Below, in pieces: positions 148 through 19,662 of a stretch of DNA of 64,000 nt (position 1 is the stretch's first letter; each line of letters begins with the position of its first letter). This DNA is from Terripilifer ovatus. Lineage in GTDB: Bacteria > Pseudomonadota > Alphaproteobacteria > Rhizobiales > Beijerinckiaceae. The stretch covers positions 1 to 64,000 of the forward strand of contig JARHVB010000028.1 of the NCBI GenBank assembly GCA_029222685.1, written 5' to 3'. Position numbers and translations under genes: made by a program. Under the pieces are notes generated by a model, which was not told where the DNA came from, did no database searches, and worked only from the letters and a program-made list of their open reading frames with translations.

Positions 148-1338
148 TCATCCCTTCGCCGGATGCGCCTTCACCACCTCTTCATTGATCTCCGTTCCCC
201 AGCCCGGCCCGTCCGGCAGCACGAATTCGCCATGTTCAATTTGATAAGGCACCGTCAGCATGTCGGCCCGCCACGGCACCTCGTCGACGTCGAGCTCGAA
301 GATGCGAAAGTTCGGAATGGCGGCGCAGAAATGCGCGGCGATCACGCTCGACAGCGGGCCGTTGAAACAATGCGAGGCGACATTGACCTCGGCCGCGTCG
401 CACATCGCCGCCATGCGCAGGCTCTCCGGCATGCCGTTGTATTGCACGTCGATGATCGCCACGTCGGCGCTGCCGTGATCGAGAAACGGTTTTAATGCCC
501 GGCGGCCCAGAATGGCCTCGATAGAGGCGATTGGCGTCGTCGTCGAATTGCGGATGCCCGCGAGCACCGCCGCATCATAAACATCCATCTCCAGCCATTC
601 GAGGCCGAACGGCTCGACAGCCTTCGCGAAGCGGCGGAAGCCCTCGGCCTTGTAGTTGAAATTGAGATCGACCATCAGGCCGGCGTCTGGCCCGGCGCCG
701 GCGCGCAGCGCCGTCAACTGCTTCTCCAGCGCCTTGATGAGCGAACGGTCCGCATTCAGCTCCGGATGCCCCGGCCCGCGCGCGGAGCCGGGCGCATACA
801 TGCGTGCGCCCCTGTCGTCGAACAGCAGCAGGTTGGTCTTCATGGCGCGAAAGCCGCGCGCCACCGCCTCGCGCGCCGCGGCTTCGAGGTCGGCCAGGCT
901 ACGCACCGCGGGCGCCGCGATCACATTGCCATCGAAGAAATCGGGGTTGCGGGCGCGCACGACGCCGCAGCGCGACCAATAGGCCGGCAGACGTTTGCGC
1001 AGCGCACCGCCAAGAAGATCGTAGACCGGAATGCCGAGCGCCTTCGCCTTGATGTCGAGACAGGCATTCACGATCGGCGCGATGGCGTGCGACATGATCC
1101 CGCCGGCAACCGGCCGGGTCTGCGCTGTCAGCGCCGCCTCGATAGCCGAGATATTGCGCGGATCGTCACCCTTGATCGCGGCGCACAGCGACCGCACGAT
1201 CTGCGTCAGCCCCTTGCGGCCGCGCCCCTCGTTATACTCGCCCCATCCGACGAGCCCATCGTCGGTCACAATCTTGAGAAAGGAATAGGTGTCCCACCCG
1301 GCGTCGGCGTGCAAATCCTCGAAGGCGACGATCTTCAT
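148..1338 (-). CDS. Mandelate racemase/muconate lactonizing enzyme family protein (enolase superfamily)
   Basis: A 396-residue enolase-superfamily enzyme, which abstracts a proton alpha to a carboxylate in acid-sugar dehydratases, racemases or cycloisomerases. The N-terminal capping domain (about 1-125) is followed by the TIM barrel. Visible elements are the lysine segment RAMKTN on the second strand, metal ligands in MVDLNFNY, EWLEMD and ASIEAI, and a likely His/Asp dyad (IIDVQYNG and ASHCFNGP). The start chosen is the ATG at 1338 because it opens the conserved MKIVAFED segment and is preceded by GAGGAA; the open frame runs 57 codons further upstream without support. It sits upstream-facing in a run of minus-strand catabolic genes. 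Substrate cannot be told; an acid-sugar dehydratase or a cycloisomerase are both possible. Confidence 0.88.
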   Translation of the reverse strand: MKIVAFEDLHADAGWDTYSFLKIVTDDGLVGWGEYNEGRGRKGLTQIVRSLCAAIKGDDPRNISAIEAALTAQTRPVAGGIMSHAIAPIVNACLDIKAKALGIPVYDLLGGALRKRLPAYWSRCGVVRARNPDFFDGNVIAAPAVRSLADLEAAAREAVARGFRAMKTNLLLFDDRGARMYAPGSARGPGHPELNADRSLIKALEKQLTALRAGAGPDAGLMVDLNFNYKAEGFRRFAKAVEPFGLEWLEMDVYDAAVLAGIRNSTTTPIASIEAILGRRALKPFLDHGSADVAIIDVQYNGMPESLRMAAMCDAAEVNVASHCFNGPLSSVIAAHFCAAIPNFRIFELDVDEVPWRADMLTVPYQIEHGEFVLPDGPGWGTEINEEVVKAHPAKG

Positions 1339-1486
1339 CTGATTCCTCGCGCGGGCCTGTAGACGGACCCTTGCGATGAGTTTCGGATGCCACGGGCGCG
1401 GCGTCAATCTGATCCTCATAAACAAAAGCGCGGCGTTGCCGCCGCGCTTTGATGGCTGTCCGCCGCCTTTCATCCTCCGCGTCGGC

Positions 1487-1622
1487 ATGCCCGCACTTGT
1501 TGCGGGCACCCACGCCAGGACATCGCCGCATCATGGAGGGAAATGCCCGAACGATCGGGCAAACCCATCTTCGTCATCGCTCGCCACGGCGTGGGTGCCC
1601 GGCACAAGGCCGAGCATGACGC
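1487..1622. repeat. Intergenic inverted repeat, family C (GCCCGCA...TGCGGGCACCCACGCC)
   Basis: A palindromic element about 45 bases long (CATGCCCGCACTTGTTGCGG through CACCCACGCC) is followed about 50 bp later by its inverted partner (GGCGTGGGTGCCCGGCACAA). Each arm can itself fold (GCCCGCAC/GTTGCGGGC). Closely similar pairs occur at 14575-14706 and 38781-38924, always between genes. It is a small interspersed palindromic element; no coding capacity. Confidence 0.75.
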
Positions 1623-1634
1623 TGTGAAGGTCGC

Positions 1635-2681
1635 TTACCGCAGCTCTTCACGATACAGCCCCAGCTTTTCCTGGGCGCTGCGGTCGGAGAAGGTGAAGGT
1701 GATCGCGTCCTTGGAAGCGCGATACTTCCGCCAGACCCAGCTCGGCATGGCAATAACGTCGCCTTCCGTGGCGCGGAAGCTCTTGTCGCCGGCTTCGACC
1801 TCGATCTCGCCTTCGACGACGATGACCGTCTGGCCGTCGGTGGCGCGCAGCGGCTTGGTCTCGAAGCCCTTCGGCAGATGCGACAGCCAGGCCGCGATGG
1901 TCGGCATCGGCCAGCCGCCATCGGTCGGATTGGTGTAGCGCAGGGCGTGGGCTCTGTGCGCATCCGGCTTGCCGGCGGCGGCGATCGCCATCAGCGCCTC
2001 ACGGCTGGCCTTGTACTTGTAGTTGAAGATCGGCGTGGTCAGGCCGAACGGCGAGGCCATCTGGAACGGAGCCATATTGGCGCCCCAGCGCGCCTGCGAT
2101 TCGCCCGGCTTCCTCTGCACCATCTGCGCCTTGTCGTTGGCGTGCTCGCTGAAGGCCGTCTCGAAGAAGTTGATCATATGCAGATCGAGACCGTCGATCC
2201 AGATCACCGGCTTGTCATGCTCCTGGCCGTGGTCGTGCCAGGCCCAGTTCGGCGTGATGACGAAATCGCCGCGCTCCATCAGGGTGCGCTCGCCGGCAAC
2301 CGCCGTGTAGCCGAGATTGCCCTCCAGCACGAAACGCAGCGCCGAGGCGGTATGGCGATGCGCCGGTGCGATCTCGCCCGGCAGGATCAACTGCATGCCG
2401 GAATACATGGTGGCGGTGATGCGCGAGCCGCCGGGCATGGCCGGATTCTCGAACACCAGCACGCGGCGCTCGGCCTCTTCAGCGGTGAGGAGATCGCCGG
2501 CTTCCATCAGGAACTCGCGGCATTCCTTGAAGCGCCACACATGCGGGATGAATTTGCTCGTCGGCTCGAGCGGCACCAGACCCTTGAGCACTTCCCACAG
2601 CGGCGCAAGGTTCTGCGGCGCCAGCCTGTCGTAGAATTTCTGCCGGTCTTTGACGGGTGCGAGAGCTTCTGCTGTCGACAT
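1635..2681 (-). CDS. Gentisate 1,2-dioxygenase-like bicupin
   Basis: A 348-residue bicupin resembling gentisate 1,2-dioxygenase, an Fe(II) enzyme that opens the ring of 2,5-dihydroxybenzoate or related hydroxy acids between the carboxyl- and hydroxyl-bearing carbons to maleylpyruvate. The N-terminal cupin carries the iron-binding HRHTASALRFVLEG motif (His108, His110) and AWHDHG (His149 or His151); the C-terminal cupin is degenerate, as is usual. The length fits the family (about 340-390). I chose the second in-frame ATG at 2681 because GGAG lies 7 bases upstream; the first ATG at 2693 contains that Shine-Dalgarno. It precedes no obvious maleylpyruvate isomerase or fumarylpyruvate hydrolase in the window, so a salicylate- or other-substrate ring cleavage is possible. 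Confidence 0.85.
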   Translation of the reverse strand: MSTAEALAPVKDRQKFYDRLAPQNLAPLWEVLKGLVPLEPTSKFIPHVWRFKECREFLMEAGDLLTAEEAERRVLVFENPAMPGGSRITATMYSGMQLILPGEIAPAHRHTASALRFVLEGNLGYTAVAGERTLMERGDFVITPNWAWHDHGQEHDKPVIWIDGLDLHMINFFETAFSEHANDKAQMVQRKPGESQARWGANMAPFQMASPFGLTTPIFNYKYKASREALMAIAAAGKPDAHRAHALRYTNPTDGGWPMPTIAAWLSHLPKGFETKPLRATDGQTVIVVEGEIEVEAGDKSFRATEGDVIAMPSWVWRKYRASKDAITFTFSDRSAQEKLGLYREELR

Positions 2682-2729
2682 GATACGCTCCATTCGTTGC
2701 GGACGCGCTGCGTCCAGTCGGAATTCAGT

Positions 2730-3677
2730 CTACTTCTTCATCAGCTGGAAAAATTGATCCAACTGTTCCTTCTTCAAGGGCTCGCTCAGATATTTGAACG
2801 CGATCCCGTCAGCCATGGCCTGATCGATCCCGCTGATGTTGTCGGGATCGGCATTGGCGCGCGGAATGAAATCGTCGCGGGTGCGCCGCGCGATCTCTTC
2901 GGTGGTCTGCGCCCATTTGGCATAGACCTTCATGCTGTCGGGGCTTTCATAGAGCCACGCCAGCGTTTCCCGATAGCCTTCCATATAACGACGGAAGGCA
3001 TCGCGGTTCTTCTCCAACGAGCCGGCGTTGACGGCGATGAGGCGCACGGTCTGCTCGCGCATTTCCGGCACTTCGGAGCCGCGCGCCACGATACGCGTGC
3101 GCCCGTCGAGGATGGCGTCGAGCTGCAGCGGCGCAGCGGTCCAGCCGATGGCGATCTGGCCGCTCATGACCTGCGTGTACGTCGCCGGCGGACTGCCGGT
3201 CGCGACGGCGTCGACCTTGACGCCGTAGACTTTCTCGAGGCCCATCACCAGAAGATTGGTCGAAGAGCCGCGCGTCGAAAAGGCGACGGTCTTGCCGGCG
3301 GCATCCTTGAACGTCTTGATCGGCGAGTTCGCCGGCACGTACCAGACTTCGTAGGAGCCTTTCATCGTCGCACCGATGGCGCGGATCGGCGCGCCTTTCT
3401 GAAACGCCGACAGCGCCGACACCGTTCCGATGCCGATGCCGATATCGACGCTGCCGGAAATGACCGCCTGCTGGGATTCGCCGCTTCCCTGCGTGTACAG
3501 GATTTCGAGCGCCAGATTGTGCTTCTTGAAGATGCCAGCGTCCTGGCCGAGTTCGGACACGGAATTTTCGAACACGCCGCGCTGTCCGATCGCGACCTTC
3601 AGCCGGTCCTGCGCCAGCACCGGCGATACAATCATTGTCGCCAGCGCCAGAATGGAGATGCGAAAAGCCTGCGTCAC
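2730..3677 (-). CDS. Periplasmic substrate-binding protein, NMT1/SsuA-like ABC type
   Basis: A 315-residue exported binding protein of the NitT/TauT (NMT1/SsuA-like) fold. The start is taken as the GTG at 3677, preceded by GTGAGGAGCGCGCC; this gives a clean signal peptide (VTQAFRISILALATMIVSPV then LAQ cleavage). The longer open frame to 3836 would add an arginine-rich, implausible leader and overlap the aldolase gene. Mature domain shows the family pattern of VAIGQRGVFENS, the DIGIGIGT segment and a C-terminal helix pair. It is 10 bp downstream of the aldolase/decarboxylase gene, so probably co-transcribed and delivering the pathway substrate. No permease or ATPase is adjacent. Confidence 0.85.
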   Translation of the reverse strand: MTQAFRISILALATMIVSPVLAQDRLKVAIGQRGVFENSVSELGQDAGIFKKHNLALEILYTQGSGESQQAVISGSVDIGIGIGTVSALSAFQKGAPIRAIGATMKGSYEVWYVPANSPIKTFKDAAGKTVAFSTRGSSTNLLVMGLEKVYGVKVDAVATGSPPATYTQVMSGQIAIGWTAAPLQLDAILDGRTRIVARGSEVPEMREQTVRLIAVNAGSLEKNRDAFRRYMEGYRETLAWLYESPDSMKVYAKWAQTTEEIARRTRDDFIPRANADPDNISGIDQAMADGIAFKYLSEPLKKEQLDQFFQLMKK

Positions 3678-3687
3678 GGCGCGCTCC

Positions 3688-4479
3688 TCACACTTTGCCT
3701 TCGGCGCGCATGCGCCACATGTCCCAGGCGCGCGTCGCCTGGCCGCCGATAACCCGCGTCGCCGTGCGCGTTTCCGCTTCGCTGAGGCCGGTGATCGGGC
3801 CGCCGAGGCGTGCGGCTTCCGAGAGGACGCGGGCATTCTGCTCCGTATAGACGGCGCGGAACACGGCTTCCTTGAGGCTGGTGCCGACGGCCGTCGAGCC
3901 GTGACCGCGCATCAGCACGACGACGCTGTCGCCCAGGCATTCCGCCAGCGCCTTGCCGAGCTTGCCGTTGGTGATGAGCAAGTCGTTGTCGTCGCCGACC
4001 ACATCGCGAATTTCAAACACCGGCGCGCAGGTGCCGATGAACGAGCCCATATGGGTGACGGCGCGGAACGGAAACGTCGGCACCAGGCCGAACGGCAGCA
4101 CCGCCATGGAGTGGGAATGCACGACGGCCATCACATCGGGCCGGGCGCGATAGATTTCGCCATGGATGAAGCGTTCGAGGTAGACGGCGCGACCGTTGGC
4201 ATCGACCGGCGCGCCATCGAGATCGAACTCGACGATGTCTTCGGCGGTCACCTGCACCGGCGCCATATTGCGCGCCAGCAGGAAACGGTCGGGCCGCTTG
4301 TCGTGGCGGACACTGACGTGGCCGAACGCATCGACGACGCCTTCGCCGAACAGGATATGATTGGCGGTGACGAGATCGTCGATCAGCTTCGGATCAGCCT
4401 TCGGACCCGGCGCCGCGGATGTTCCTGCTACGCCGCCCGTATTGGCAATATCAACTGAACCATGCCCGGATGTACACAT
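3688..4479 (-). CDS. Class II aldolase/adducin family protein (possible decarboxylase)
   Basis: A 263-residue class II aldolase-fold enzyme. These are zinc-dependent lyases that cleave or decarboxylate carbonyl or hydroxy-aromatic acids. The metal-binding set is visible: HSHS (His121, His123) and RGHG (His193), with Glu108 in HGEIY as candidate catalytic acid/base. Start at the ATG 4479 is preceded by GGGGAGG; the open frame extends to 4620 through AT-rich promoter DNA with no conserved residues. Related proteins in phthalate-type clusters act as dihydroxyphthalate decarboxylases, and fuculose-phosphate-aldolase-like lyases are the alternative. It heads a minus-strand operon with the binding protein and the gentisate-dioxygenase-like gene and is divergent from the IclR regulator. 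Confidence 0.85.
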   Translation of the reverse strand: MCTSGHGSVDIANTGGVAGTSAAPGPKADPKLIDDLVTANHILFGEGVVDAFGHVSVRHDKRPDRFLLARNMAPVQVTAEDIVEFDLDGAPVDANGRAVYLERFIHGEIYRARPDVMAVVHSHSMAVLPFGLVPTFPFRAVTHMGSFIGTCAPVFEIRDVVGDDNDLLITNGKLGKALAECLGDSVVVLMRGHGSTAVGTSLKEAVFRAVYTEQNARVLSEAARLGGPITGLSEAETRTATRVIGGQATRAWDMWRMRAEGKV

Positions 4480-4564
4480 ATGATGGCTACCTCCCCGGCC
4501 GAGTGTCGCTTGCTGCGCTTCGGACGGCAATATAATTGACCGCCACGCTCCCGGCGATAAATTA

Positions 4565-4609
4565 TGAGTATCAGAGTTGTTTGACTGCGTCAAGATTATC
4601 ATATAATAA
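4565..4609. promoter_or_regulatory. Overlapping divergent promoters around a 13-bp palindrome, candidate IclR operator
   Basis: In the AT-rich gap between the aldolase gene and the iclR-type gene the sequence TTGACTGCGTCAA (4581-4593) is an inverted repeat TTGAC-N3-GTCAA. Its two arms double as -35 boxes: on the plus strand TTGACT with TAATAA 17 bp away at 4604-4609 (and TATAAT at 4602-4607), and on the minus strand TTGACG with TACTCA 17 bp away at 4565-4570. A regulator binding the palindrome would occlude both -35 regions, which fits control of both directions by the adjacent IclR protein. Inference from sequence only. Confidence 0.55.
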
Positions 4610-4672
4610 TAAATTCGCACTTACAATTCACCATAATGGCGATTAAACGAGAAGTTACGGACGGAAGCGGCA

Positions 4673-5458
4673 TTGGCGGGTTTCAGCAGATTTCTCAGCG
4701 TTCTGCGCCTCTTCAACGAGGCCGAAAGCGCCTGGACGGTGCCCGCCATGGCCGACGCCATGGGCGTGCCGGCCAGCACCGTCTACCGCACCGTCCGCGA
4801 TCTCGTCGCCGCCGGTTTTCTCGAACAAGCGACCGAGGCCGCCTATCGGCTCGGGCCTGCCTTTATCGAGTTCGACCGTTCGCTGCGCCTCACCGATCCG
4901 CTGGTGGTGGCCGGCCGGCCGGTCCTGCACGACGTGGTCATGCAGGCGCATGTGCCCTGCGTCGCCATGCTCGCCCGTTTCTACAACGGCGCGGTGATGT
5001 GCGTCGCCGACGAGGCGGCCGCCGACACGCCGTTCCGGCCCAGCTACGAGCGCGGACGGCCGATGCCGCTGACGCGCGGCTCGACTTCAAAGGTCATCCT
5101 CGCCCATCTGCCGACGCGCCAGTTCAACAAGCTTGTCGAAAATCATGAGGGGCTCGACGCAGCAGCCCTGCGCGCCGAGCTCGCCGATATCCGCAAGCGC
5201 GGCTTCTGCTCGACGGCGAGCGAGATCGACCAGGGCCTGGCCGGTATTTCCGCGCCGGTCATCCTCAAGGACGCCGGCATTGTGGCGAGCCTCAGCCTCG
5301 TCGCCCATGACGCCGCGCTCGACGAAGGCCAGAGGCGGCGGTTGATCCTGCTCGTCGTCTCGGCCGCCAGCCTGCTTGCCGAAGATCTCCGCCGGCGTCA
5401 TCAGGCAGGCGGATCAAACATCAGGAAAGCCATGGGGGAACCGGGGAATGGAAAATGA
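4673..5458 (+). CDS. IclR family transcriptional regulator
   Basis: A 261-residue IclR-type regulator: N-terminal winged helix-turn-helix (about 5-65, with FLSVLRLFNEA and the recognition region VPASTVYRTVRDL) and a C-terminal effector-binding domain (about 75-245; includes RGSTSKVILAHLP and the GLAGISAPV segment typical of the family). The start is a TTG at 4673 preceded by GGAAGCGG; no in-frame ATG precedes the HTH. It overlaps the flavoprotein hydroxylase gene by ATGA (5455-5458), so the two are translationally coupled. IclR proteins commonly control aromatic degradation operons and sense pathway substrates, and the palindrome at 4581-4593 is its most likely site. Confidence 0.92.
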   Translation: MAGFSRFLSVLRLFNEAESAWTVPAMADAMGVPASTVYRTVRDLVAAGFLEQATEAAYRLGPAFIEFDRSLRLTDPLVVAGRPVLHDVVMQAHVPCVAMLARFYNGAVMCVADEAAADTPFRPSYERGRPMPLTRGSTSKVILAHLPTRQFNKLVENHEGLDAAALRAELADIRKRGFCSTASEIDQGLAGISAPVILKDAGIVASLSLVAHDAALDEGQRRRLILLVVSAASLLAEDLRRRHQAGGSNIRKAMGEPGNGK

Positions 5459-7059
5459 GCGAAGCTGATCTCGCTTGCGACATCGCGATCATCGGCGCCG
5501 GCCCCACCGGGCTGACCCTGGCCAACCTGCTCGGCCGCGCCGGCGTGGACACCATTCTGGTCGAGCGCAATGAGCTGACCGTCCAGGCGCCCCGCGCCGT
5601 CTCCATCGACGACGAATCCTTGCGCACCATGCAGGCCTGCGGCCTCATCGACGAGGTGATGGCCGATGTCGCGCCCGACTATGGCTCTCATTACATGTCG
5701 ACGGCCGGCATCAATTTCGCCCGTGTCGAGCCGACAACCCGTGAATATGGCTATCCGCGCCGCAGTGCCTTCATGCAGCCCGAGCTGGAAGCGACACTGC
5801 GCACAGGCCTTGTCCGCTGGCCGAGCGTCAAACAGCTTTTTCAGCATACGTTCGAGTCAGTCGACGAGAGCGACCTTGGCGTCACCGTTCAGATCAAGGG
5901 CCCCGACGGTTCGCCGCTGACGATCCGCGCCAGATATCTCGCCGCCTGCGATGGAGGCCGCAGCGCCCTGCGCAAGATCATCGGCGCCGAACTGCAGGGA
6001 TCGACCTATCCCGACAAATGGCTGATCGTTGATATGGAAGGGACGAAGGAACGCCTGCGCCAGACCCGCGTCCTGTGCAATCCGGCGCGCCCGGCCATCT
6101 GCCTGCCCGGCCCCGACGGCAAGCGCCGCTACGAATTCAAGCTGCACGACGGCGAATCCGAAGAGGAAATATCTTCGCCGGAGTCCGTGGCAAAACTGCT
6201 GGCCATGTATGGCCCCGACGAGAACGCCGCCATCGTGCGACGGCAGGTCTACGCTTTCCATGCGCGCGTCTGCGACAAGTGGAACACGAAGCGCATCTAT
6301 CTTGCCGGCGATGCCGCGCATCTGACACCGCCCTTCGCCGGCCAGGGCATGAACAGCGGCGTGCGCGACGCCCATGCCCTGTCATGGCGCTTCGCCGCCG
6401 TGGCCAAAGGGGAGCTCGGACCGGGCGTGCTCGACAGCTACGAGAGCGAGCGCAAACCCCATGCCTGGGCGCTGATCGATCTCGCCATCAACATCGGCCG
6501 CGTGATGATGCCGACCTCGCCGTTGCAGGCCTGGCTCGTGCAAGCGGCCTTCCGGCTGATGCGCTTCGTGCCGACGGTGCAGAACTATTTCGCGCAGATG
6601 CGCTTCAAGCCGAAGCCCTATTACAAAAAAGGCTTCATCGTCGAGGACACGTCGTCCACCGTCGTCGGCCGCATGTTCCCGCAGCCCGATGTGGAAATGC
6701 TCGACCGCTCGGTGAAGAAGATGGACGATCTGCTCGGCAACGACTTCGCGCTGATCGCCTATGGTGATGAGGCGCAGGCGACGATTGCCGCGACGCAGAC
6801 GATAGACTTCGGCCTGCCCGACCTGCGCCGGCTCGCCATCACACCCATGCGCATGAACATCGACCGCCGCGCCGATCCATCGATTTTAGCCTGCCGTGAC
6901 AAGACGGGGTTGCTCGAACAGACACTGAATGCGGCTAAGGAAACGCTGATCGTCGTTCGTCCGGACCGCTATACACTGGCGGCAGCGGAGATCAGCAAAC
7001 CGGGTGATATCGCCGTGATGGCCGGCAAGGTCCGCAAACGGGTGGCGGAGTCACGCTGA
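5455..7059 (+). CDS. FAD-dependent aromatic hydroxylase (MhpA-like, group A flavoprotein monooxygenase)
   Basis: A 534-residue FAD/NAD(P)H monooxygenase of the p-hydroxybenzoate hydroxylase fold, closest in layout to 3-(3-hydroxyphenyl)propionate hydroxylase MhpA. Motifs: GAGPTGLTLANLLG (about 15-28, ADP-binding), the ACDGGRSALR NAD(P)H/FAD motif near 160, and LAGDAAHLTPPFAGQG near 283 that binds the FAD ribityl chain. The C-terminal thioredoxin-like tail of about 150 residues is present, so it is full length. It would hydroxylate a phenolic acid ortho or para to the hydroxyl before ring cleavage. ATGA overlap with the IclR gene makes it the regulated partner; a hairpin follows at 7065-7083. 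Confidence 0.9.
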   Translation: MSEADLACDIAIIGAGPTGLTLANLLGRAGVDTILVERNELTVQAPRAVSIDDESLRTMQACGLIDEVMADVAPDYGSHYMSTAGINFARVEPTTREYGYPRRSAFMQPELEATLRTGLVRWPSVKQLFQHTFESVDESDLGVTVQIKGPDGSPLTIRARYLAACDGGRSALRKIIGAELQGSTYPDKWLIVDMEGTKERLRQTRVLCNPARPAICLPGPDGKRRYEFKLHDGESEEEISSPESVAKLLAMYGPDENAAIVRRQVYAFHARVCDKWNTKRIYLAGDAAHLTPPFAGQGMNSGVRDAHALSWRFAAVAKGELGPGVLDSYESERKPHAWALIDLAINIGRVMMPTSPLQAWLVQAAFRLMRFVPTVQNYFAQMRFKPKPYYKKGFIVEDTSSTVVGRMFPQPDVEMLDRSVKKMDDLLGNDFALIAYGDEAQATIAATQTIDFGLPDLRRLAITPMRMNIDRRADPSILACRDKTGLLEQTLNAAKETLIVVRPDRYTLAAAEISKPGDIAVMAGKVRKRVAESR

Positions 7060-7064
7060 CTGGG

Positions 7065-7090: not shown

Positions 7091-7092
7091 TT

Positions 7093-7974: not shown

Positions 7975-8044
7975 CACCAGCCCCCGGTGAACGTCCCGCC
8001 GCCAGCATAGTCGGCACGCCCGCCCCCGACAACAATGCTCAAAC

Positions 8045-8078
8045 AAAAACGCCCGCCTCTCGCGAGACGGGCGTTTTC
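8045..8078 (-). terminator. Rho-independent terminator of the hydrolase-dehydrogenase operon
   Basis: Read on the minus strand, a GC-rich stem (AAAACGCCCG paired with CGGGCGTTTT, with TCTCGCGAGA as a nested palindrome) runs into TTTTTGTTT. It lies 18 bp past the stop of the amidohydrolase gene. Confidence 0.8.
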
Positions 8079-8095
8079 TCAAACTCAAACCAGAT

Positions 8096-12443: not shown

Positions 12444-12456
12444 GAATATGGCCCGG

Positions 12457-13524: not shown

Positions 13525-14537
13525 AAATCTGCATTATCGGCGCCGGCGCCATCGGCGGCCTGCTTGCGGCGAAACTCGCGGCGAGCGGCGAGGACGTCAC
13601 CGTCGTGGCGCGCGGCGCGCAGCTTGCCGCCATCAAGTCCGATGGCCTGCGCCTCATCGGCGAAGAAGGCGATGTGCAAGATGGCGATATACATGTGCGC
13701 CCGCGTGCGGTCGGCACGGTGAAGGAGGCCGGCCCGCACGACCTCGTCCTGCTCGGCATGAAGGCGCATCAGGTCGCCGAGATCATTCCCGACCTGCCCG
13801 CGACCTTCACTGACGAGACCATGGTGCTGACGGCGCAGAACGGCATTCCCTGGTGGTATTTCCTCAAGCAGGAAAGCCCCTTCGCCGGCCGCAGGCTCGA
13901 AAGCGTCGATCCCGGCGGCATCATCGCTGGTGGCCTGCCGGCGGAGCGCGTGATCGGTTCCGTCGTCTATCCGGCCGCCGAGATCGCCGCGCCCGGCGTC
14001 ATCAGGCTCATCGAAGGCAATCGCTTCTCGCTGGCGGAGATCGACAACAGCAAGTCGCCGCGCATCGAGGCCGTGTCGCAGGCCTTCACCAGGGCCGGCT
14101 TCAAGGCGCCCGTCGTCTCCGACATTCGCGCCGAGATCTGGACCAAGCTGTGGGGCAATCTCAGCTTCAACCCGATCAGCGCGCTGACGCACGCGACTCT
14201 GGCCGCGATCTGCGCCGATCCGCTGACCCGTGCGCTGGCAGCCGACATGATGCGCGAGGCGCAGGCGATCGGCGAGCGCCTCGGCATCCGCTTCCGCATC
14301 CCGTTGGAAAAGCGCATCGCCGGTGCAGCCGCCGTTGGCGAGCACAAGACCTCGATGCTGCAGGATGTGGAATCTGGTCGCTTCATTGAGATCGACGCCC
14401 TGGTCGGCTCGGTCATCGAACTGGGTGAGATCACCGGCGTGCCGACGCCGAACATTTCCGCCGTCTATGCCTGTGTGAAGCTGCTGGCGCAGACAGCGCA
14501 GGCGCAGAAGGGCGCAGTGAGGATCGTGACGCTTTAA
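13521..14537 (+). CDS. Ketopantoate reductase family protein (PanE/ApbA fold)
   Basis: A 338-residue PanE/ApbA-type NADPH reductase. The N-terminal glycine motif IGAGAIGGLLAAKLA is at about 5-19 and the helical C-terminal domain carries the conserved lysine of IWTKLWGNLSFNPISALTHA. The start at 13521 overlaps the stop of the preceding dehydrogenase (ATGA); the open frame extending to 13479 lies inside that gene. The genomic setting argues against housekeeping pantothenate synthesis and for reduction of a catabolic 2-oxo acid. Sequence of 338 residues is longer than E. coli PanE (303) but usual for proteobacterial paralogues. Confidence 0.85.
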   Translation: MKICIIGAGAIGGLLAAKLAASGEDVTVVARGAQLAAIKSDGLRLIGEEGDVQDGDIHVRPRAVGTVKEAGPHDLVLLGMKAHQVAEIIPDLPATFTDETMVLTAQNGIPWWYFLKQESPFAGRRLESVDPGGIIAGGLPAERVIGSVVYPAAEIAAPGVIRLIEGNRFSLAEIDNSKSPRIEAVSQAFTRAGFKAPVVSDIRAEIWTKLWGNLSFNPISALTHATLAAICADPLTRALAADMMREAQAIGERLGIRFRIPLEKRIAGAAAVGEHKTSMLQDVESGRFIEIDALVGSVIELGEITGVPTPNISAVYACVKLLAQTAQAQKGAVRIVTL

Positions 14538-14574
14538 ATCTCAAGATGAAGCGGAAGCGCTGCACCCTGTACCA

Positions 14575-14706
14575 CGTCTTGCCCGGCCTTGTGCCGGGCA
14601 CCCACGCCGTGACGTTGCATTGCCGTCGCAGAACTTACGCACGTGCTCGTCCTGCATCATAACCGCGCACTCCGGCGTGGGTGCCCGCAACAAGTGCGGG
14701 CATGAC
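14575..14706. repeat. Intergenic inverted repeat pair, family C
   Basis: TTGCCCGGCCTTGTGCCGGG followed by CACCCACGCC (from about 14578) is mirrored by GGCGTGGGTGCCCGCAACAA with GTGCGGGCATGAC (14671-14705). It lies between the convergent genes ending at 14537 and 14724, where it may also act as a bidirectional transcription stop. Confidence 0.75.
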
Positions 14707-14723
14707 GGTTGCGCGGTGTCGCC

Positions 14724-15605
14724 CTATCTCTTCAACAGCGGCACAGCCAGCTTCACAAACTCATCCGCCGCATCCCACGGCACCAGATGCTTGCAGCCTT
14801 CGGCGATGTGCAGGTCGAGGTGCGGATAAAGCTGTTTCAGCTTGGTGGCGCGCTCGAAGGCATTGGCCCTGTCCTGCTTGCCGTAGATCATCAGCAGCGG
14901 CGCCTTCACTTCCGCCGTCTTCTGCCACAGCGGCACGGCCGGCTCTTTCGCCGGCTGGGACTCGGCGAGTTCATTGCGGGCGCAGAAGGCTTCGAACGCC
15001 TTGCCGATGCTGCGCGCGTGGCGCAGCGCCAGTTCGTCCGGCGTGATCAATTCGTGATGGAAGAGATTGGCCTCGAGCAGCTTACGCGTGTCCTCGATGG
15101 TCGGCTCTGCCTGCGCCATGCGGCGCTCCAGCCGCTGCTGCACGGCGGCTTCCGCCGATACTCCTTTATTATTTGCCTTCTTGCCTTCATCGAGCGGCGG
15201 CAGCAGGCTGCCGGTGCCCAGCACCACCACATGGCTCACCCGGTCCGGCGCCTGCAGCGCCGTCTGGATGGCGGGCCCGCCCGATTGCGAATGGCCGATC
15301 AGCGCCGCCTTCGCCAGGCCAAGCGCATCCATGAATTTCAGGATCGAGGCGCGGCGATAGGCCGGCGAGTGATCGCTCGGCGTATCGGAGAGGCCGAAGC
15401 CTGGGAAATCGAAGGCGATGGCGCGGAAGCCCGCTTTCGCCAGCGGCGGCAGGTTGCGCAGGAACACATCCGCCGAGGAGCCGAGCGAGGCGCCATGCAG
15501 CAGCAGCAGCGGCGGGCCGCTGCCGGCCTCGATGTAGCGCAGTTTCAGCCCGTCGACCGTGACGAACTTGTCTTCAACCCGCGCTTTCGCGACAGCATCA
15601 TCCAT
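14724..15605 (-). CDS. Alpha/beta hydrolase
   Basis: A 293-residue alpha/beta-fold hydrolase. Landmarks: oxyanion segment LLLLHGASLG (about 33-42), nucleophile elbow IGHSQSGG with Ser106, acid residue in MIYGKQDRAN and catalytic His in GCKHLVPWD (His273). In layout it resembles meta-cleavage-product C-C hydrolases (MhpC/BphD type), which cut vinylogous 1,5-diketones after extradiol ring opening, but simple esterase or lactonase activity cannot be excluded. The start is preceded by AAGGGCGAAGACC. Eleven bases separate it from the upstream VOC gene, so the pair forms one operon; a ring-cleavage dioxygenase and its hydrolase would be a natural couple. Confidence 0.85.
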   Translation of the reverse strand: MDDAVAKARVEDKFVTVDGLKLRYIEAGSGPPLLLLHGASLGSSADVFLRNLPPLAKAGFRAIAFDFPGFGLSDTPSDHSPAYRRASILKFMDALGLAKAALIGHSQSGGPAIQTALQAPDRVSHVVVLGTGSLLPPLDEGKKANNKGVSAEAAVQQRLERRMAQAEPTIEDTRKLLEANLFHHELITPDELALRHARSIGKAFEAFCARNELAESQPAKEPAVPLWQKTAEVKAPLLMIYGKQDRANAFERATKLKQLYPHLDLHIAEGCKHLVPWDAADEFVKLAVPLLKR

Positions 15606-15616
15606 GGTCTTCGCCC

Positions 15617-16429
15617 TTATTCATCTGTGATGTCGATCCACACCGCGCCGGGATCGGCGATCTGCATTTTGCCCGTCGCGGCTTTCGCCAGGAATGCCTT
15701 GCGCGCATCGGATTCCTTGCTGCCGCCGAGCGGCATCGCCGCCAGATAGGGATTGGACCCGCCGATGGCGCCAAGATGTTCCTTGAACGCGTCCATGCTC
15801 TCCACCTTGAAGCCGATATGGTCCGGCCCCGGCCGCTTGATCGACATGTTCTCGAAGATCGGGATCGACCACGGCAGGATCGACAGCGTCACCCGCCCGT
15901 CGGTGAGATGCCAGCCCGGCCCGTCGAACCGCTTGTTCAGCGGCTCCAGCTCGAACACTTCCGAATAGAATTCTGCGCATTTCTCCGCATTGGGCGTGCG
16001 GATGGCGAATTTGTTGAGATAGCGGTCCGGGACCGGCTTTTCCTCCATCTGGTCGGCATAGACCTCGCTGAGCTTGCTCGTCCGCTCCGCCAGGTCGAAG
16101 ACGTTGCCGTCCGGATCATTGCCCGAATATTGGGCGAACGGCCGGGTCGACGGCCGCTTGACGATATTGGCCTCGGGGAATTTCTTCTGCATGCGCTCCA
16201 GCGCCGCATCGATGCTGTCGACCTTCATGCCGAAATGATCGAGCCCGCCGACATAGCCGTCGCGCAGCGGATTGATGTTCATGCCCACATAGCCGTCGCC
16301 GACGGAGACGCCATTGGCCGGCCGGCTGGTCTTGCTGGAGGGTTTCAGCCCGAACACCGCCTCGTAGAACTTCGCCATCATCGGCCAGTTCGGGCTGTTC
16401 ATGGCCATGTGATTGATCTGCGCGAACAT
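15617..16429 (-). CDS. VOC-superfamily protein with two glyoxalase/extradiol-dioxygenase modules
   Basis: A 270-residue protein built of two vicinal-oxygen-chelate modules (about 1-120 and 135-268). The first module has a complete metal triad pattern: His7 (QINHMAM), His65 (GLDHFGMKV) and Glu115 (NVFDLAER). The second has lost the first His (NKFAIRTPN) but keeps PDHIGFKVES. It could be a type I extradiol dioxygenase-like or a lyase/isomerase; in true two-domain extradiol enzymes the active metal is in the second module, so this arrangement is unlike them. GGAGGAGACGGTC precedes the ATG. Divergent from the dihydroxyphthalate-decarboxylase-like gene, with which it likely shares control. Confidence 0.82.
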   Translation of the reverse strand: MFAQINHMAMNSPNWPMMAKFYEAVFGLKPSSKTSRPANGVSVGDGYVGMNINPLRDGYVGGLDHFGMKVDSIDAALERMQKKFPEANIVKRPSTRPFAQYSGNDPDGNVFDLAERTSKLSEVYADQMEEKPVPDRYLNKFAIRTPNAEKCAEFYSEVFELEPLNKRFDGPGWHLTDGRVTLSILPWSIPIFENMSIKRPGPDHIGFKVESMDAFKEHLGAIGGSNPYLAAMPLGGSKESDARKAFLAKAATGKMQIADPGAVWIDITDE

Positions 16430-16473
16430 GACCGTCTCCTCCTAAAAATTTGCTTTTGCCAATTGTACGCGCC

Positions 16474-16487
16474 TTGCAGCCATGCAA
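16474..16487. promoter_or_regulatory. Palindrome in divergent intergenic region, possible operator
   Basis: TTGCAGCCATGCAA (TTGCA-N4-TGCAA) lies in the 97-bp gap between the divergently transcribed VOC and decarboxylase-like genes. The position suits an operator controlling both. No match to a known site can be claimed. Confidence 0.35.
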
Positions 16488-16526
16488 TCAAGACAGCAAA
16501 GCTTCATAATGAGGAGGAAGCCGCCG

Positions 16527-17528
16527 ATGAAAAAGATCAATCTCACCATCGCCGCCAGCGATTACGATCATTTCCGCGATTTCCGCAACGGCGAGGTGCA
16601 GGCGCAGGGCATCGAGCCGATCTGGCTTCAGCACGAAATTCACGAGATTTTCTCCCGTTTCGCCGCCAAGCGCGAATGGGATGTCAGCGAAATGTCCTTC
16701 GCCAAGTTCACCGCCCAGATGGCCGAGCACGAGAAGCCCGAAGACCGGGACGTGATCGCCCTGCCGGTCTTCGCCTCGCGCGTCTTCCGCCTGTCGTCGC
16801 TGTACGTGAACCCCTCGAAAGGCATCAGGACCGCCGCCGATCTCAAGGGCAAGCGGGTCGGCCTGCCTGAATGGGCGCAGACCGCCGCCGTCTATACGCG
16901 CGGCTGGCTGGAGCATGAGGCCGGCGTGCCGCTGACCAGCATCCAGTGGGTGCAGGCGGGCACCGAAGATGCCGGCCGCACCGAGAAGGTCGATCTCAAA
17001 CTGCCGGACGGCATCAACATCATCCGCGAATCGGAAAAGACGTTGAGCGACATGATCGTGCGCGGCGAGCTCGACGCCATCATGACGGCGACCATCCCGC
17101 TGCCCTACCAGCGCCGCGATCCCAACATCAAACGCCTGTTCGACGACCCGACCGGCGAAGAGGTGAAATATTTCCAGCGCACCGGCGTCTATCCGATCAT
17201 GCACATCATCGCCATGCGCAAGGCGGTGCTCGACGAATACCCCTGGGCGGCGCGCAATCTCTATCTCGCCTTCCTGGAATCGAAGGACCGCGCCATGGAG
17301 CGCATCTTCGAAGGCGGAGCCTCGCGCTACCCGATCCCCTGGCTGAACGACACGGTGATGAAGCTGCGCGACCTGTTCAAGGGCGACATCTACCCCTACG
17401 GCCTCGACGCCAATTACACGACGCTGGAAACCTTCCTGCGCTTCTGCTTCGAGCAGGGCGTGGCGAAGCGCCTGCTGAAGCCGGAGGACATTTTCCCAGC
17501 CGGGATAAACCCGCAGGTGAAAACCTAG
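16527..17528 (+). CDS. 4,5-dihydroxyphthalate decarboxylase-like protein (periplasmic-binding fold, cytoplasmic)
   Basis: A 333-residue protein of the family that includes 4,5-dihydroxyphthalate decarboxylase (Pht5), which has a type II periplasmic-binding fold but is an intracellular enzyme. The start at 16527 follows GAGGAGGAAG; no signal peptide is present (MKKINLTIAASDYDHFRDF), consistent with a cytoplasmic enzyme rather than a transporter component. Typical segments are EMSFAKFTAQMAE, LPVFASRVFRLSSLYVNPS and ADLKGKRVGLPEWAQTAAVY. It would remove a carboxyl group from a hydroxylated aromatic dicarboxylate. Divergent from the VOC/hydrolase operon. Confidence 0.85.
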   Translation: MKKINLTIAASDYDHFRDFRNGEVQAQGIEPIWLQHEIHEIFSRFAAKREWDVSEMSFAKFTAQMAEHEKPEDRDVIALPVFASRVFRLSSLYVNPSKGIRTAADLKGKRVGLPEWAQTAAVYTRGWLEHEAGVPLTSIQWVQAGTEDAGRTEKVDLKLPDGINIIRESEKTLSDMIVRGELDAIMTATIPLPYQRRDPNIKRLFDDPTGEEVKYFQRTGVYPIMHIIAMRKAVLDEYPWAARNLYLAFLESKDRAMERIFEGGASRYPIPWLNDTVMKLRDLFKGDIYPYGLDANYTTLETFLRFCFEQGVAKRLLKPEDIFPAGINPQVKT

Positions 17529-17977
17529 AGCTATTCCGCCAGACAAACGGCTGTCATCCCCGACGCCCGCAAAGCGGCTACCGGATTCACACATCCAGGA
17601 GGCCGAATCGGGATCGGCACTCGGGATGGCCCTCGATGACGAGCGCGATAAGCGCAGGATACGGAACGAAGCTTTGAAGAGATTCGTCTTTCGATAGGCA
17701 TTGATGCAGCTTCGACGTCTGGTTTCCCGCTCGCGCTTCGCGCGTCGGGAATGACATTGAGGTCCTGTCATCCCCGACGCGCCGCAGGCGCGAGCGGGGA
17801 TCCAGACCTGAAAATTCAGTGCATCGGATGCCCGCGAGAGATGTGTGAATGCCATAGCGCAAAGCGGGCGAGCGGGGATCCAGAGGCCAACGACGGCATG
17901 TGTCATCACGTTGCCTCTGGATTCCCGCTCTGCGCTTCGCTTGGCGGGAATGACACCAAGACTGCGGCCCTACAGCC
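17529..17977. repeat. Array of family A palindromic repeats filling a 449-bp gap
   Basis: The gap between the decarboxylase-like gene and the TauD gene holds at least four partial or complete family A arms: TGTCATCCCCGACGCCCGCA (from 17552), TTTCCCGCTCGCGCTTCGCG to GGGAATGACATTG (17715-17759), CTGTCATCCCCGACGCGCCG to GGGGATCCAGACC (17765-17810), AGCGGGCGAGCGGGGATCCA (17864-17883) and CTGGATTCCCGCTCTGCGCT to GGGAATGACACC (17925-17957). They alternate in orientation and could fold into long hairpins. No gene-like reading frame stands out in it. Confidence 0.8.
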
Positions 17978-18853
17978 CTACGGCTCCGATACCGTCACAC
18001 GGCGCAGATGCCGCCGCTCGCTCGCCGGGAAATCCGCGCGTGCGTGATTGACGGCGCGGTTGTCCCAGATCAGCAGGTCAGCGACTTTCCAGGAATGGGC
18101 GTAGATGAACTCCGGCCGCTCGATGTGCGCGAACAGTTCTTCCAGCAGCCCGTCGCTTTCGGCACGCTCCATGCCGACAATGTTGCGGGTCATCAGGCGG
18201 CTCAGATAGAGCGCCTTGCGGCCTGAATCAGGATGCACGCGCACCAGCGGATGCCGCGCGTTCGACAGCTTGCCGTCGGTCTCGTCCGTCTGCTCGCGCA
18301 AGGTCGCCCGTGTGTCGTAGACATTGTTGACGATCAAGCCTTCGAGACGTTGCTTCATCGCCTCCGGCAGATGGTCGTAGGCCATCTGCATATTGGCGAA
18401 TTTGGTTTCGCCGCCGACGGAAGGAATCTCGATCGAGAACAGGCTGGTGGCGCGATAGGGCGATTTGCGGTGCGCGCCGTCGGAATGAAAATGCAGCTCG
18501 CCATCCGGCAGCGCGCCGACCTGCTGGCCGTTCTCGCGCAGGTTGGAAATATACATCACGCCGCGCTTCGCCGGACCATCATATTCTGCCTTCTCGCTAT
18601 ATTCCGGCGTGTCATTGGCCGTCGGCTTACCCATGAAATCCGCATCCGCGCGTCCGAAGTTGCGCGCGAAGCGAATCTGGTCTTCGTTGGTGATGGTCTG
18701 CTGCGGAAAGCATAGCACGCAATATTTCGCGAATGCCTCGCGCAGCATCAGCGAGCGCGCGGCGCTGTCGGGTTCGCTCAGATCGACGCCGTGCACACGC
18801 GCGCCGAGAATCGGGCTGAGCGGCTCGAATGCGATCGCCGTCCCTTCTGCCAT
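17978..18853 (-). CDS. TauD/TfdA family Fe(II)/2-oxoglutarate-dependent dioxygenase
   Basis: A 291-residue TauD/TfdA-type oxygenase, which couples oxidative decarboxylation of 2-oxoglutarate to hydroxylation of a substrate, often releasing sulfite or a side chain. The iron triad is visible: HFHSDG (His123, Asp125) and VNHARADF (His270), with arginines about 11-15 residues later (RRHLRR) to hold 2-oxoglutarate. The start at 18853 has GGGAGGAGACC upstream; the extra ten residues of the longer frame contain the ribosome site. It ends 26 bp upstream-adjacent to the SDR gene on the same strand and likely shares its transcript. Substrates of the family include taurine and aryloxyacetates such as 2,4-D. 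Confidence 0.88.
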   Translation of the reverse strand: MAEGTAIAFEPLSPILGARVHGVDLSEPDSAARSLMLREAFAKYCVLCFPQQTITNEDQIRFARNFGRADADFMGKPTANDTPEYSEKAEYDGPAKRGVMYISNLRENGQQVGALPDGELHFHSDGAHRKSPYRATSLFSIEIPSVGGETKFANMQMAYDHLPEAMKQRLEGLIVNNVYDTRATLREQTDETDGKLSNARHPLVRVHPDSGRKALYLSRLMTRNIVGMERAESDGLLEELFAHIERPEFIYAHSWKVADLLIWDNRAVNHARADFPASERRHLRRVTVSEP

Positions 18854-18879
18854 GGTCTCCTCCCTGTTCTTTGATCGGT

Positions 18880-19662
18880 TCAATGCATCGCCTGACCGCC
18901 GTCGACATTGAGTGTCTGGCCGGTCATAAAACCGCTGGCGTCCGACAGCAGGAACATCACCGCGCCGACGAGATCGTCCGGCACCTGCGCCCGTTTGAAG
19001 GTGCGGCCATCGCCCTTGAACGCGACGTAGTTCGACGAGGACGAGGCCACCTGCGTCTCGCTCTCCGTGAAGCCAGGCGTAATGGCATTGACGCCGATGT
19101 TGTCGTCCCCGACCTCGCGCGCTAGCGCCCTGGTCAGCCCGACGACACCGGCTTTCGACGTCGTATAGTGCAGGCGATTAGGGTTGCCGCCCCAGATGCG
19201 CGACGAAGAAATGTTGACGATACGTCCGCCGCCCTGCGCCTTCATGTGCGGATGCACGGCGCGGCAGCACAGGAAGATACCCTTCAGGTTGACGGCCATC
19301 ACCCGATCCCATTCCTCCACCGGAATCTTGAGCCAGCTTCCGCGCGGCAGCACGCTCATCAGCGAGGCATTGTTGATCAGCCCGTCGATACGGCCCCATT
19401 TGGCGATGGTCTGCGCCACCATGGCCTCGACCGATTCCGGGCTGGACACGTCGGTGGGAAACGACACCACCTCCAGCCCAGCCCTGGTGCAATCTTCGGC
19501 GACCTTGCCCGCAGGCTCTGCGGCGATATCGGCCAAGACCACCCGGGCACCGCCTTCCGCCAGCCGCTGGCTGTAGACTTTGCCGATACCGGTGCCGCCG
19601 CCGGTAACTATGATCACCTTGCCTGCGACGCTGAAAGCCGTCTTGACGTCAAAACCCGCCAT
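18880..19662 (-). CDS. Short-chain dehydrogenase/reductase
   Basis: A 260-residue classical SDR. Cofactor motif TGGGTGIG at 20-27, the structural NNAS at 97-100, catalytic Ser near 153 and Tyr166-x3-Lys170 (HYTTSKAG), and the C-terminal ending TGQTLNVDGGQ. NAD(P)-dependent oxidation or reduction of an alcohol/ketone is expected; the substrate is unknown. The start at 19662 is preceded by GAGGAAACGGCGAT, which places the ribosome site well; the frame open to 19749 adds non-conserved residues. It is upstream of the TauD gene in the same direction. Confidence 0.9.
   Translation of the reverse strand: MAGFDVKTAFSVAGKVIIVTGGGTGIGKVYSQRLAEGGARVVLADIAAEPAGKVAEDCTRAGLEVVSFPTDVSSPESVEAMVAQTIAKWGRIDGLINNASLMSVLPRGSWLKIPVEEWDRVMAVNLKGIFLCCRAVHPHMKAQGGGRIVNISSSRIWGGNPNRLHYTTSKAGVVGLTRALAREVGDDNIGVNAITPGFTESETQVASSSSNYVAFKGDGRTFKRAQVPDDLVGAVMFLLSDASGFMTGQTLNVDGGQAMH

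Follow-up and report, generated by a model that had tools for sequence, protein, structure and literature searches.

Genes that resemble parts of several aromatic-acid degradation pathways lie side by side at the start of a contig from Terripilifer ovatus (Alphaproteobacteria; Rhizobiales; Beijerinckiaceae), and they raise the question of whether one undescribed pathway is encoded there or several pathways that have come to be neighbors. The window analyzed is the first 64,000 nucleotides of contig JARHVB010000028.1 (assembly GCA_029222685.1), and the genes in question fill roughly its first 20 kb. A sequence-only reading of this DNA had suggested a single pathway built from decarboxylase, hydroxylase, ring-cleavage, and LigI-like modules and acting on an unrecognized (hetero)aromatic or hydroxyphthalate-type acid. 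An aromatic-acid catabolic island with these modules does exist, and it is mosaic. We consider it somewhat probable that the island is a conserved mosaic of two blocks, a gentisate block (block A) and a protocatechuate/gallate block (block B). We read it as a variant gentisate route, which is new, next to a recurrent protocatechuate/gallate gene pair, not as one new pathway.

Conservation of a six-gene core

Gene calling by codon usage placed 20 clean genes across positions 148 to 21623 (the left side is cut, the window start being the contig start), and the 20 proteins were scanned with Pfam and NCBIfam profiles. Six of the genes form a core:

1635..2693, minus strand: gentisate 1,2-dioxygenase (cupin); TIGR02272, 458.3 versus cut-off 442.1; nearest PDB entry 2d40
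3688..4620, minus strand: class II aldolase-family decarboxylase; nearest PDB entry 2z7b (Mlr6791), E 2e-61
4673..5458, plus strand: IclR-family regulator (profile scans); in 11 of 11 other islands; 4-base overlap with the hydroxylase gene
5455..7059, plus strand: MhpA-type FAD hydroxylase; NCBIfam NF004831, 634.0 versus cut-off 546
8096..9007, minus strand: LigI-type 2-pyrone-4,6-dicarboxylate hydrolase; nearest PDB entry 4d8l, E 2e-68
9004..9822, minus strand: DUF1932 NAD-binding oxidoreductase; PF09130, 53.4 versus 25; 4-base overlap with LigI

Genomes, loci, contigs, and gene clusters are referred to below by our own handles (G, L, C, and c numbers). A strong hydroxylase match was found in 28 of 51 genomes of the genus, this one included, and regions were fetched for 24 of the other 27, leaving out G029, G040, and G043 (short contigs). 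A gentisate dioxygenase gene lies beside the hydroxylase gene in 11 of the 24; these 11 islands were chosen for that arrangement, so that the dioxygenase's own 11 of 11 (79 to 95% identity) is by choice. Counted at ≥50% identity, with some islands cut by contig ends, IclR, hydroxylase (59 to 82% identity), and LigI genes are present in all 11 and the decarboxylase and DUF1932 genes in 10. The complete set of six recurs in 10 of the 11 islands, which argues that the cluster is more than chance. It lies on one contig in seven genomes (G001, G014, G010, G047, G050, G027, and G013) and is split over two contigs in three (G030, G006, and G031), where the breaks fall between or inside these genes and are compatible with adjacency but not proof of it. 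Two loci on different contigs were used for each of G006, G030, G031, and G049, with L107 taken as the second contig of G030 on the agreement of its contig number and length.

Recurrence can also reflect history alone. That the two blocks are unrelated pathways, neighbors by common descent and without a functional tie, is a serious alternative to which we give a little less than even credence. Most genomes of the genus have LigI and DUF1932 homologues, and block A was found in 12; block A stands apart from LigI in G049, where LigI (62%) is elsewhere, beside a second LigAB; and the gentisate-partnered genomes form one group on the hydroxylase tree, so that shared ancestry could have preserved the order. 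The association of the blocks has nevertheless been kept through a relative inversion, since G050 and G013 carry block A in inverted orientation with respect to LigI-DUF1932 and the blocks remain neighbors, and it has been kept despite hydroxylase divergence down to 61% identity.

A proposed gentisate route in block A

The decarboxylase, a binding protein (SBP1), the gentisate dioxygenase, and a racemase/enolase-family gene are on the minus strand, and the IclR and hydroxylase genes diverge from them. Two of these genes lie outside the core:

2730..3836, minus strand: NMT1/SsuA-type binding protein SBP1 (profile scans); not detected in the 11 other islands
148..1509, minus strand: mandelate racemase/enolase superfamily gene (profile scan); not conserved

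We propose that block A, as decarboxylase-SBP1-gentisate dioxygenase divergent from IclR-hydroxylase, would feed the gentisate pathway with a hydroxyphthalate-type acid. The class II aldolase-type enzyme would remove the carboxylate beside the ring hydroxyl to give 3-hydroxybenzoate, the MhpA-type hydroxylase would add the para hydroxyl to give gentisate, replacing the 3-hydroxybenzoate 6-monooxygenase of related operons, and the cupin would open gentisate to maleylpyruvate, with isomerase and hydrolase encoded elsewhere.

For the ring-cleavage step, the cupin exceeds the curated NCBIfam equivalog cut-off for gentisate 1,2-dioxygenase (458.3 versus 442.1 bits), so the earlier description “gentisate-dioxygenase-like” named the right family in too weak a term. 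In alignment with 2d40 it keeps HRH at 112 to 114 and H153/H155, which we take to be the iron-binding histidines. Membership in the gentisate dioxygenase family is well supported by this homology, and the enzyme is predicted to act on gentisate.

The decarboxylase (PF00596, 104.7 versus 22.2) has its nearest solved relative in Mlr6791, which we take to be the 3-hydroxy-2-methylpyridine-4,5-dicarboxylate decarboxylase of vitamin B6 degradation, an enzyme that presumably removes the carboxylate adjoining a ring hydroxyl. The 2z7b alignment shows that HxH 168-170, H240, and E155 are retained; we assume that HxH…H is the class II aldolase metal-site pattern and that the Glu position is catalytic. 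On a benzene ring, the counterpart of the Mlr6791 reaction would be conversion of 3-hydroxyphthalate to 3-hydroxybenzoate, which would feed gentisate operons of the kind described below. Vitamin B6 degradation itself was rejected, as the scanned region yielded no further gene of that pathway, and 3,4-dihydroxyphthalate decarboxylase (PhtC) was ruled out by its NCBIfam model (NF053537, 84 versus cut-off 200).

Relatives of the decarboxylase accompany 3-hydroxybenzoate and gentisate genes instead. On Phaeobacter plasmid pP11_c, a class II aldolase gene 41% identical to that of the window stands in a row with genes for 3-hydroxybenzoate 6-monooxygenase (559.2 versus 459), an FAH hydrolase, maiA (254.1 versus 171.05), a gentisate dioxygenase-like cupin (280, below the cut-off of 442.1), and a maleylpyruvate-isomerase-type protein. 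Gentisate dioxygenase, MFS-cluster, 3-hydroxybenzoate-6-monooxygenase-cluster, FAH-cluster, and decarboxylase genes lie together in L146, of the same genus. L145 combines a decarboxylase homologue with 3-hydroxybenzoate 6-monooxygenase (531.7 versus 459) and an FAH-cluster gene, without the dioxygenase, and L140 combines one with an FAH hydrolase, an MFS gene, and gentisate dioxygenase (450.1 versus 442.1), without a monooxygenase-cluster member; SBP1 relatives adjoin the decarboxylase homologues in all three loci. Sphingobium AntQ-1 carries a cupin-FAH-class II aldolase set. Because its relatives are found in such operons, the decarboxylase most likely yields 3-hydroxybenzoate from a hydroxyphthalate-type acid, and such an acid was a good guess for the entry substrate in the sequence-only reading. 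The island resembles the 3-hydroxybenzoate-gentisate pathway in its dioxygenase family and in the company its decarboxylase keeps. It differs in that the window region yielded neither a 3-hydroxybenzoate 6-monooxygenase nor an isomerase or FAH hydrolase; an MhpA-type hydroxylase is present instead, and a class II aldolase-type decarboxylase is added to the operon.

The gene boundaries may need adjustment. The majority of decarboxylase relatives align only from residue ~40 onward, and the true start is probably ~40 to 70 codons inside the called open reading frame; a start for SBP1 near 3677, just past the decarboxylase stop, would give a signal-peptide-like N terminus (from residue ~54). With these inner starts the genes would be closely spaced, which would fit a single operon of decarboxylase, SBP1, and gentisate dioxygenase, with the racemase/enolase gene possibly its last member.

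A different chemistry for block A, which we think rather unlikely, is that its product, a gentisate bearing a carboxyl or other substituent or else a catechol-type compound, is what the cupin cleaves, with the decarboxylase acting after ring cleavage. The MhpA type of the hydroxylase, whose relatives are paired with extradiol-like VOC proteins, is consistent with this, as are a cupin match to the 5-aminosalicylate dioxygenase model (207.8 bits) and the citation, in the part of PMC6362003 considered, of a class II aldolase (DhbB) as decarboxylating a ring-cleavage product in another pathway. Yet the aminosalicylate match is far under its cut-off of 650 while the gentisate dioxygenase cut-off is exceeded, and the operons in which decarboxylase relatives occur with 3-hydroxybenzoate 6-monooxygenase also speak against this chemistry.

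A probable change of partner of the hydroxylase

The known chemistry of the MhpA family is ortho-hydroxylation. The 3-hydroxybenzoate 6-monooxygenase model NF006021 is not in the best 25 of the 65 families listed for the hydroxylase, and BLAST against the 3-hydroxybenzoate 6-monooxygenase of L145 gave just 34% identity over 67 residues. As in the mhp pathway for 3-(3-hydroxyphenyl)propionate, the hydroxylase exceeds the NF004831 cut-off and an HsaD/BphD/MhpC-type hydrolase is encoded, here ~8 kb off. Unlike in that pathway, the operon partner is a gentisate dioxygenase, not the extradiol dioxygenase that would go with an MhpA assignment, and neither a hydratase nor an aldolase was identified.

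A tree of 27 hydroxylases (midpoint root; the Phaeobacter branch is long) places the 12 partnered with gentisate dioxygenase in one group (support 95/94). No match to c8, an extradiol-like VOC gene, was found in 11 fetched loci of this group. The fetched locus carries a c8 gene for 14 of the 15 remaining rows, including Aminobacter and Phaeobacter; the hydroxylase locus of G019 has neither c8 nor gentisate dioxygenase. On this tree the partner changed once, most simply from an extradiol-like protein to gentisate dioxygenase, the direction being suggested by Aminobacter and Phaeobacter, whose position is outgroup-like. The VOC protein encoded farther along the window was tried as the extradiol partner and rejected, having no BLAST match at 1e-3 to c8 or to the Aminobacter and Phaeobacter VOC proteins. 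A separate observation is that a RibBA-type riboflavin synthesis gene (c30; the L058 member was scanned) is often present in c8-partnered hydroxylase clusters (L058-L064 and L066), where it perhaps supplies flavin to the hydroxylase.

LigI and a scattered protocatechuate pathway

Block B, LigI-DUF1932, would serve the 4,5-cleavage of protocatechuate or gallate. The closest solved relatives of its hydrolase are all LigI (4d8l, 4dia, and 4di8; E 2e-68 to 2.3e-67), and comparison in the 4d8l alignment shows that HCH 40-42, R130/R133, H190, R227, and D258 are retained, the His, Arg, and Asp positions being those of the presumed active site. Assignment as 4-sulfomuconolactone hydrolase was rejected (NF042924, 264.9, far under the cut-off of 500). 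LigI homologues in other genomes adjoin LigAB, LigK, the oxalomesaconate (OMA) tautomerase, and PobA; they lie beside other lig genes in Acidimicrobiia, Arcobacter, Planktomarina, and Rhodospirillales records, and 14 of 43 named LigI loci contain other lig/gal genes (L079, L085, L093, L094, and L096-L105), the other 29 having none. Homology and context make it a well supported prediction that LigI opens 2-pyrone-4,6-dicarboxylate to 4-oxalomesaconate.

The island shares LigI with the lig/pmd and gal pathways, along with a DUF1932 gene that is a recurrent neighbor in lig and gal clusters, but it holds these two genes only. LigB homologues are encoded on C2 (58%) and C40 (45%) of the same genome, with LigA beside LigB, a LigC homologue on C2 (53%), and a LigJ homologue on C83 (63%), so that the protocatechuate 4,5-cleavage pathway is scattered; FAH-family hydrolases are also encoded elsewhere in this genome. 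The sequence-only reading had stressed missing genes, and indeed the scan of the 20 proteins turned up no family of LigAB, maleylpyruvate isomerase, Rieske oxygenase, or permease type; the absence does not extend to the genome as regards LigA, LigB, LigC, LigJ, and FAH-family homologues. The reference labels LigC and LigJ are by context (a GFO/IDH-type oxidoreductase and an Amidohydro_2 protein without an NCBIfam match at the limits used, respectively), and the LigJ/LigC order in L279 agrees with the ligJABC order of PMC12710314.

Two further observations concern these genes. A second gentisate-dioxygenase-like gene (44%) lies ~5 kb from the LigC homologue of this genome (L269, G000:C2:535500-555400). 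G017 and G045 have LigI at ~90% identity with a different gene set (c122 and c123; L074, L071, L184, and L185), and no DUF1932 match was found in the G017, G045, or G032 genomes.

A DUF1932 oxidoreductase in lig and gal clusters

The most interesting lead of the locus is the DUF1932 oxidoreductase. It is present in 44 of the 51 genus genomes, 41 of which also have LigI, and the two genes are adjacent in 32 of the 41 (LigI being the best match, a second copy for G019, and 37 to 47% identical in G003, G012, and G022). A class-level survey found a match in 38 of 387 genomes and gave 38 loci outside the genome studied here, from 37 genomes and 26 genera, several surveyed loci being cut by contig ends. 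A lig/gal neighbor, defined as LigA/B/C/I/J/K, GalB, or LigU/GalD within 7 kb at ≥38% identity and ≥55% coverage, is present in 26 of the 38 loci and 21 of the 26 genera, and 22 loci have at least two. The commonest neighbors are the tautomerase (20) and LigK (18), followed by LigI (14) and LigC (13). The count falls to 24 of 38 when LigI is left out and to 22 of 38 when only LigA, LigB, LigK, LigU/GalD, and GalB are considered. Control loci had such neighbors in 1 of 20 cases when centered on the decarboxylase (17 of 18 class-level hits plus three same-family loci) and in 0 of 6 when centered on the 3-hydroxyisobutyrate-dehydrogenase-type gene (HIBADH), a small control of 10-kb loci compared with 15 kb for most; the DUF1932 count was unchanged at a 4.5-kb radius.

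The neighborhoods also indicate which part of the pathway is concerned. Trunk or gallate-type genes accompany DUF1932 at ten loci where neither LigC nor LigI was detected (L211, L212, L221, L222, L225, L226, L229, L235, L247, and L248), some of them cut by contig ends. In Pantoea piersonii, galB, aldolase, tautomerase, and DUF1932 genes are consecutive, and the annotated genes displayed include neither LigI nor LigC; in Roseomonas, DUF1932 and an amidohydrolase (53% to the LigI of the window) lie near LigK, LigA, and LigB. Gallate-type sets with DUF1932 point to a role in the trunk from oxalomesaconate onward. The idea that DUF1932 replaces LigC was rejected, since both co-occur in many genomes, this one included, and DUF1932 also occurs in gallate-type sets without detected LigC.

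Nearly invariant residues are GxGE, D35, K176, and R229/H233/R236/R237, which would fit a member of the NAD(H)-using hydroxyacid dehydrogenase superfamily acting on an anionic substrate. Under the script thresholds, no residues separated the 25 rows with lig/gal neighbors (that of the window included) from the other 12, 2 of the 38 loci being omitted from this comparison as short or interrupted.

An assigned role for DUF1932 was not found in the open-access literature searched. In the Novosphingobium LigR operon, whose order is SARO_RS14280-ligJA1B1C, SARO_RS14280 carries the annotation of an NAD(P)-dependent oxidoreductase and is described as having no known role (PMC12710314). A one-locus-tag gap between ligJ and ligR appears in the portion of PMC12997858 that lists SYK-6, a third strain, and N. 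aromaticivorans; in the N. aromaticivorans column of that portion, the ligI and ligJ tags look exchanged. Plasmid Mpl of Novosphingobium sp. PP1Y has a DUF1932 gene (44%; PF09130, 71.7 versus 25) in the slot equivalent to SARO_RS14280, in the order LigI-tautomerase-LigK and then DUF1932-LigJ-LigA-LigB-LigC. From its gene position, SARO_RS14280 is a putative DUF1932 protein. The trunk enzymes given in PMC12314914 are GalD, GalB, and GalC, and its main text has no word beginning with “phosphogluconate” or “DUF”; the passages considered in PMC8091115 and PMC13066346 assign the gene no role. LigK overexpression raises parapyruvate, according to the part of PMC11951559 considered, and parapyruvate is one candidate side product that could be the substrate of an oxidoreductase.

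From its gene context we infer for DUF1932 the role of an NAD(H)-type oxidoreductase of the shared trunk that leads from oxalomesaconate to carboxy-hydroxy-oxoadipate. Only tentatively, with somewhat less than even confidence, do we put forward the fuller proposal, in which DUF1932 would be an unrecognized and widely conserved member of that trunk, with 4-oxalomesaconate, its tautomer, or carboxy-hydroxy-oxoadipate as substrate and SARO_RS14280 as the same gene, and in which the single partner switch of a catechol-forming, MhpA-type hydroxylase would have moved the site of hydroxylation.

Several observations weigh against the functions proposed for the two blocks. The MhpA-type assignment speaks against para-hydroxylation of 3-hydroxybenzoate, a step we ourselves infer, because the known chemistry of the family is at the ortho position. 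The “extradiol” label of c8 is drawn from a VOC domain and from weak matches to models of HpaD and catechol 2,3-dioxygenase, each far under its cut-off (81.9 versus 321.4 and 76.1 versus 320.2 bits). The 20 further decarboxylase loci that served as controls are varied and gave no gentisate dioxygenase match, G049 has the gentisate dioxygenase, IclR, and hydroxylase genes but no decarboxylase, and DhbB is a cited precedent for a class II aldolase that acts after ring cleavage. In block B, 29 of the 43 named LigI loci are without other lig/gal genes; among these are the scattered copies of the genus itself, 13 loci of gammaproteobacterial type, and three with cut matches. No other lig/gal match was found in 13 of the 14 gammaproteobacterial-type named LigI loci in which the gene is whole. 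Finally, 12 of the 38 DUF1932 loci, from 5 of the 26 genera, have no lig/gal neighbor (L214, L215, L217, L219, L220, L223, L228, L231, L234, L236, L239, and L245). These 12 share the nearly invariant residues, and two explanations are both possible: their genes may be scattered as in the genome studied here, or the protein may have another role.

The 13 gammaproteobacterial-type loci (L080-L084, L087-L092, L095, and L106) encode a LigI-like protein at 64 to 69%, and many of them share conserved surroundings (clusters c9, c12, c13, c18, and c24). When four neighbors from these loci were scanned, one was a short-chain dehydrogenase (SDR) and three had no family at 1e-30.

Accessory genes and the single-pathway reading

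The remaining genes of the island are as follows, with the number of the 11 other islands that carry each:

7093..8088, minus strand: secreted protein between the two core blocks; no Pfam or NCBIfam match; not conserved
10298..11281, minus strand: NMT1/SsuA-type binding protein SBP2 (profile scans); 2 of 11
11577..12443, plus strand: second cupin, cupin2 (profile scan; no PDB sequence match); 2 of 11
12622..13524, plus strand: 3-hydroxyisobutyrate-dehydrogenase-type protein, HIBADH (profile scans); 2 of 11
13479..14537, plus strand: PanE/ApbA-type reductase (NF005089, 446.6 versus 223); 1 of 11
14724..15605, minus strand: alpha/beta hydrolase of the meta-cleavage-product hydrolase kind (best PDB matches HsaD/BphD); 1 of 11
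15617..16429, minus strand: VOC protein (profile scan; no PDB sequence match); 1 of 11
16482..17528, plus strand: 4,5-dihydroxyphthalate-decarboxylase-like protein, DHP decarboxylase (sole PDB match 9jp7, E 1.1e-67); 1 of 11
17978..18883, minus strand: TauD/TfdA-family oxygenase (profile scan); 4 of 11
18880..19749, minus strand: SDR (profile scans); 4-base overlap with the TauD gene; 5 of 11

An ADH gene is found in 2 of the 11 islands, and the racemase, SBP1, secreted-protein, and DUF305 genes in none at ≥50% identity. The module list of the sequence-only reading was borne out by the profile scans and structure matches: the hydroxylase and two cupins, the VOC protein with its alpha/beta hydrolase, the amidohydrolase with DUF1932, the HIBADH-type, PanE-type, TauD, and SDR proteins, two decarboxylases (one of the class II aldolase family, one matching 9jp7), and two binding proteins, both NMT1/SsuA-type. 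The racemase/enolase-family, IclR, and secreted-protein genes are additional to that list.

That all these modules, from the VOC protein, hydrolase, PanE, HIBADH, and cupin2 to the TauD-SDR pair, would degrade one unrecognized (hetero)aromatic acid is, we believe, improbable. Codon usage and G+C (0.61 to 0.66) are roughly uniform along the region; the genes for the VOC protein, the hydrolase, and the DHP decarboxylase adjoin one another and resemble a ring-cleavage set; and G010 retains PanE-hydrolase-VOC-DHP decarboxylase between DUF1932 and SDR. These accessory genes occur, though, in just 1 to 5 of the 11 other islands (0 to 5 if all accessory genes are counted), and one pathway would have to hold two ring-cleavage types next to one step of a third pathway, the other homologues of which lie elsewhere. 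Break-up of the neighborhood in close relatives had been named as the observation that would count against one pathway, and the outcome is divided: the six core genes stay together in 10 of 11 islands, and the remaining genes come and go. Under the two-block reading, the accessory genes would be a lineage-specific cassette in which the DHP-decarboxylase-like protein could supply protocatechuate to block B.

The nearest solved relative of that protein is 9jp7, a likeness to 4,5-dihydroxyphthalate decarboxylase; the context differs from that of pht genes with a phthalate dioxygenase, as no Rieske oxygenase family was found among the 20 island proteins scanned. In L251, L252, L258, and L206, a DHP-decarboxylase-like gene adjoins one for a class II aldolase. 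L258 (G643:C1:1830500-1845500) is a lig cluster with PobA, LigK, LigC, LigB, LigA, LigI, and LigJ in which two DHP-decarboxylase-like genes occur along with class II aldolase genes (49% and 27%), an arrangement that hints that such decarboxylases feed protocatechuate. The spacing of H7, H65, and E115 in the VOC protein could be that of a 2-His-1-carboxylate site. The TauD gene directly follows DUF1932 in G047, G050, G013, and G006.

Farther along the window lie a DUF1800-DUF1501 pair (21856-24530), which G001 and G014 also keep beside their islands; kdp genes for a potassium ATPase (27845-35983), namely KdpA, a P-type ATPase, and KdpC, with the KdpD sensor kinase and a response regulator; a PF11927 haem-dependent oxidative N-demethylase alpha-like protein (36404-37267); and two further NMT1-type binding proteins (39000-40028 and 45509-46591), with no transporter partner among the proteins scanned there.

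Implications

The class II aldolase of block A is a candidate enzyme for decarboxylating hydroxyphthalate-type acids to 3-hydroxybenzoate. The partner switch of the hydroxylase, if it took place as proposed, offers sister groups in which to find the determinants of ortho versus para hydroxylation in this flavoenzyme family. For DUF1932, the ten loci without detected LigC or LigI narrow the candidate substrates to the shared trunk of protocatechuate and gallate degradation, so that its role would be a question testable with few intermediates.

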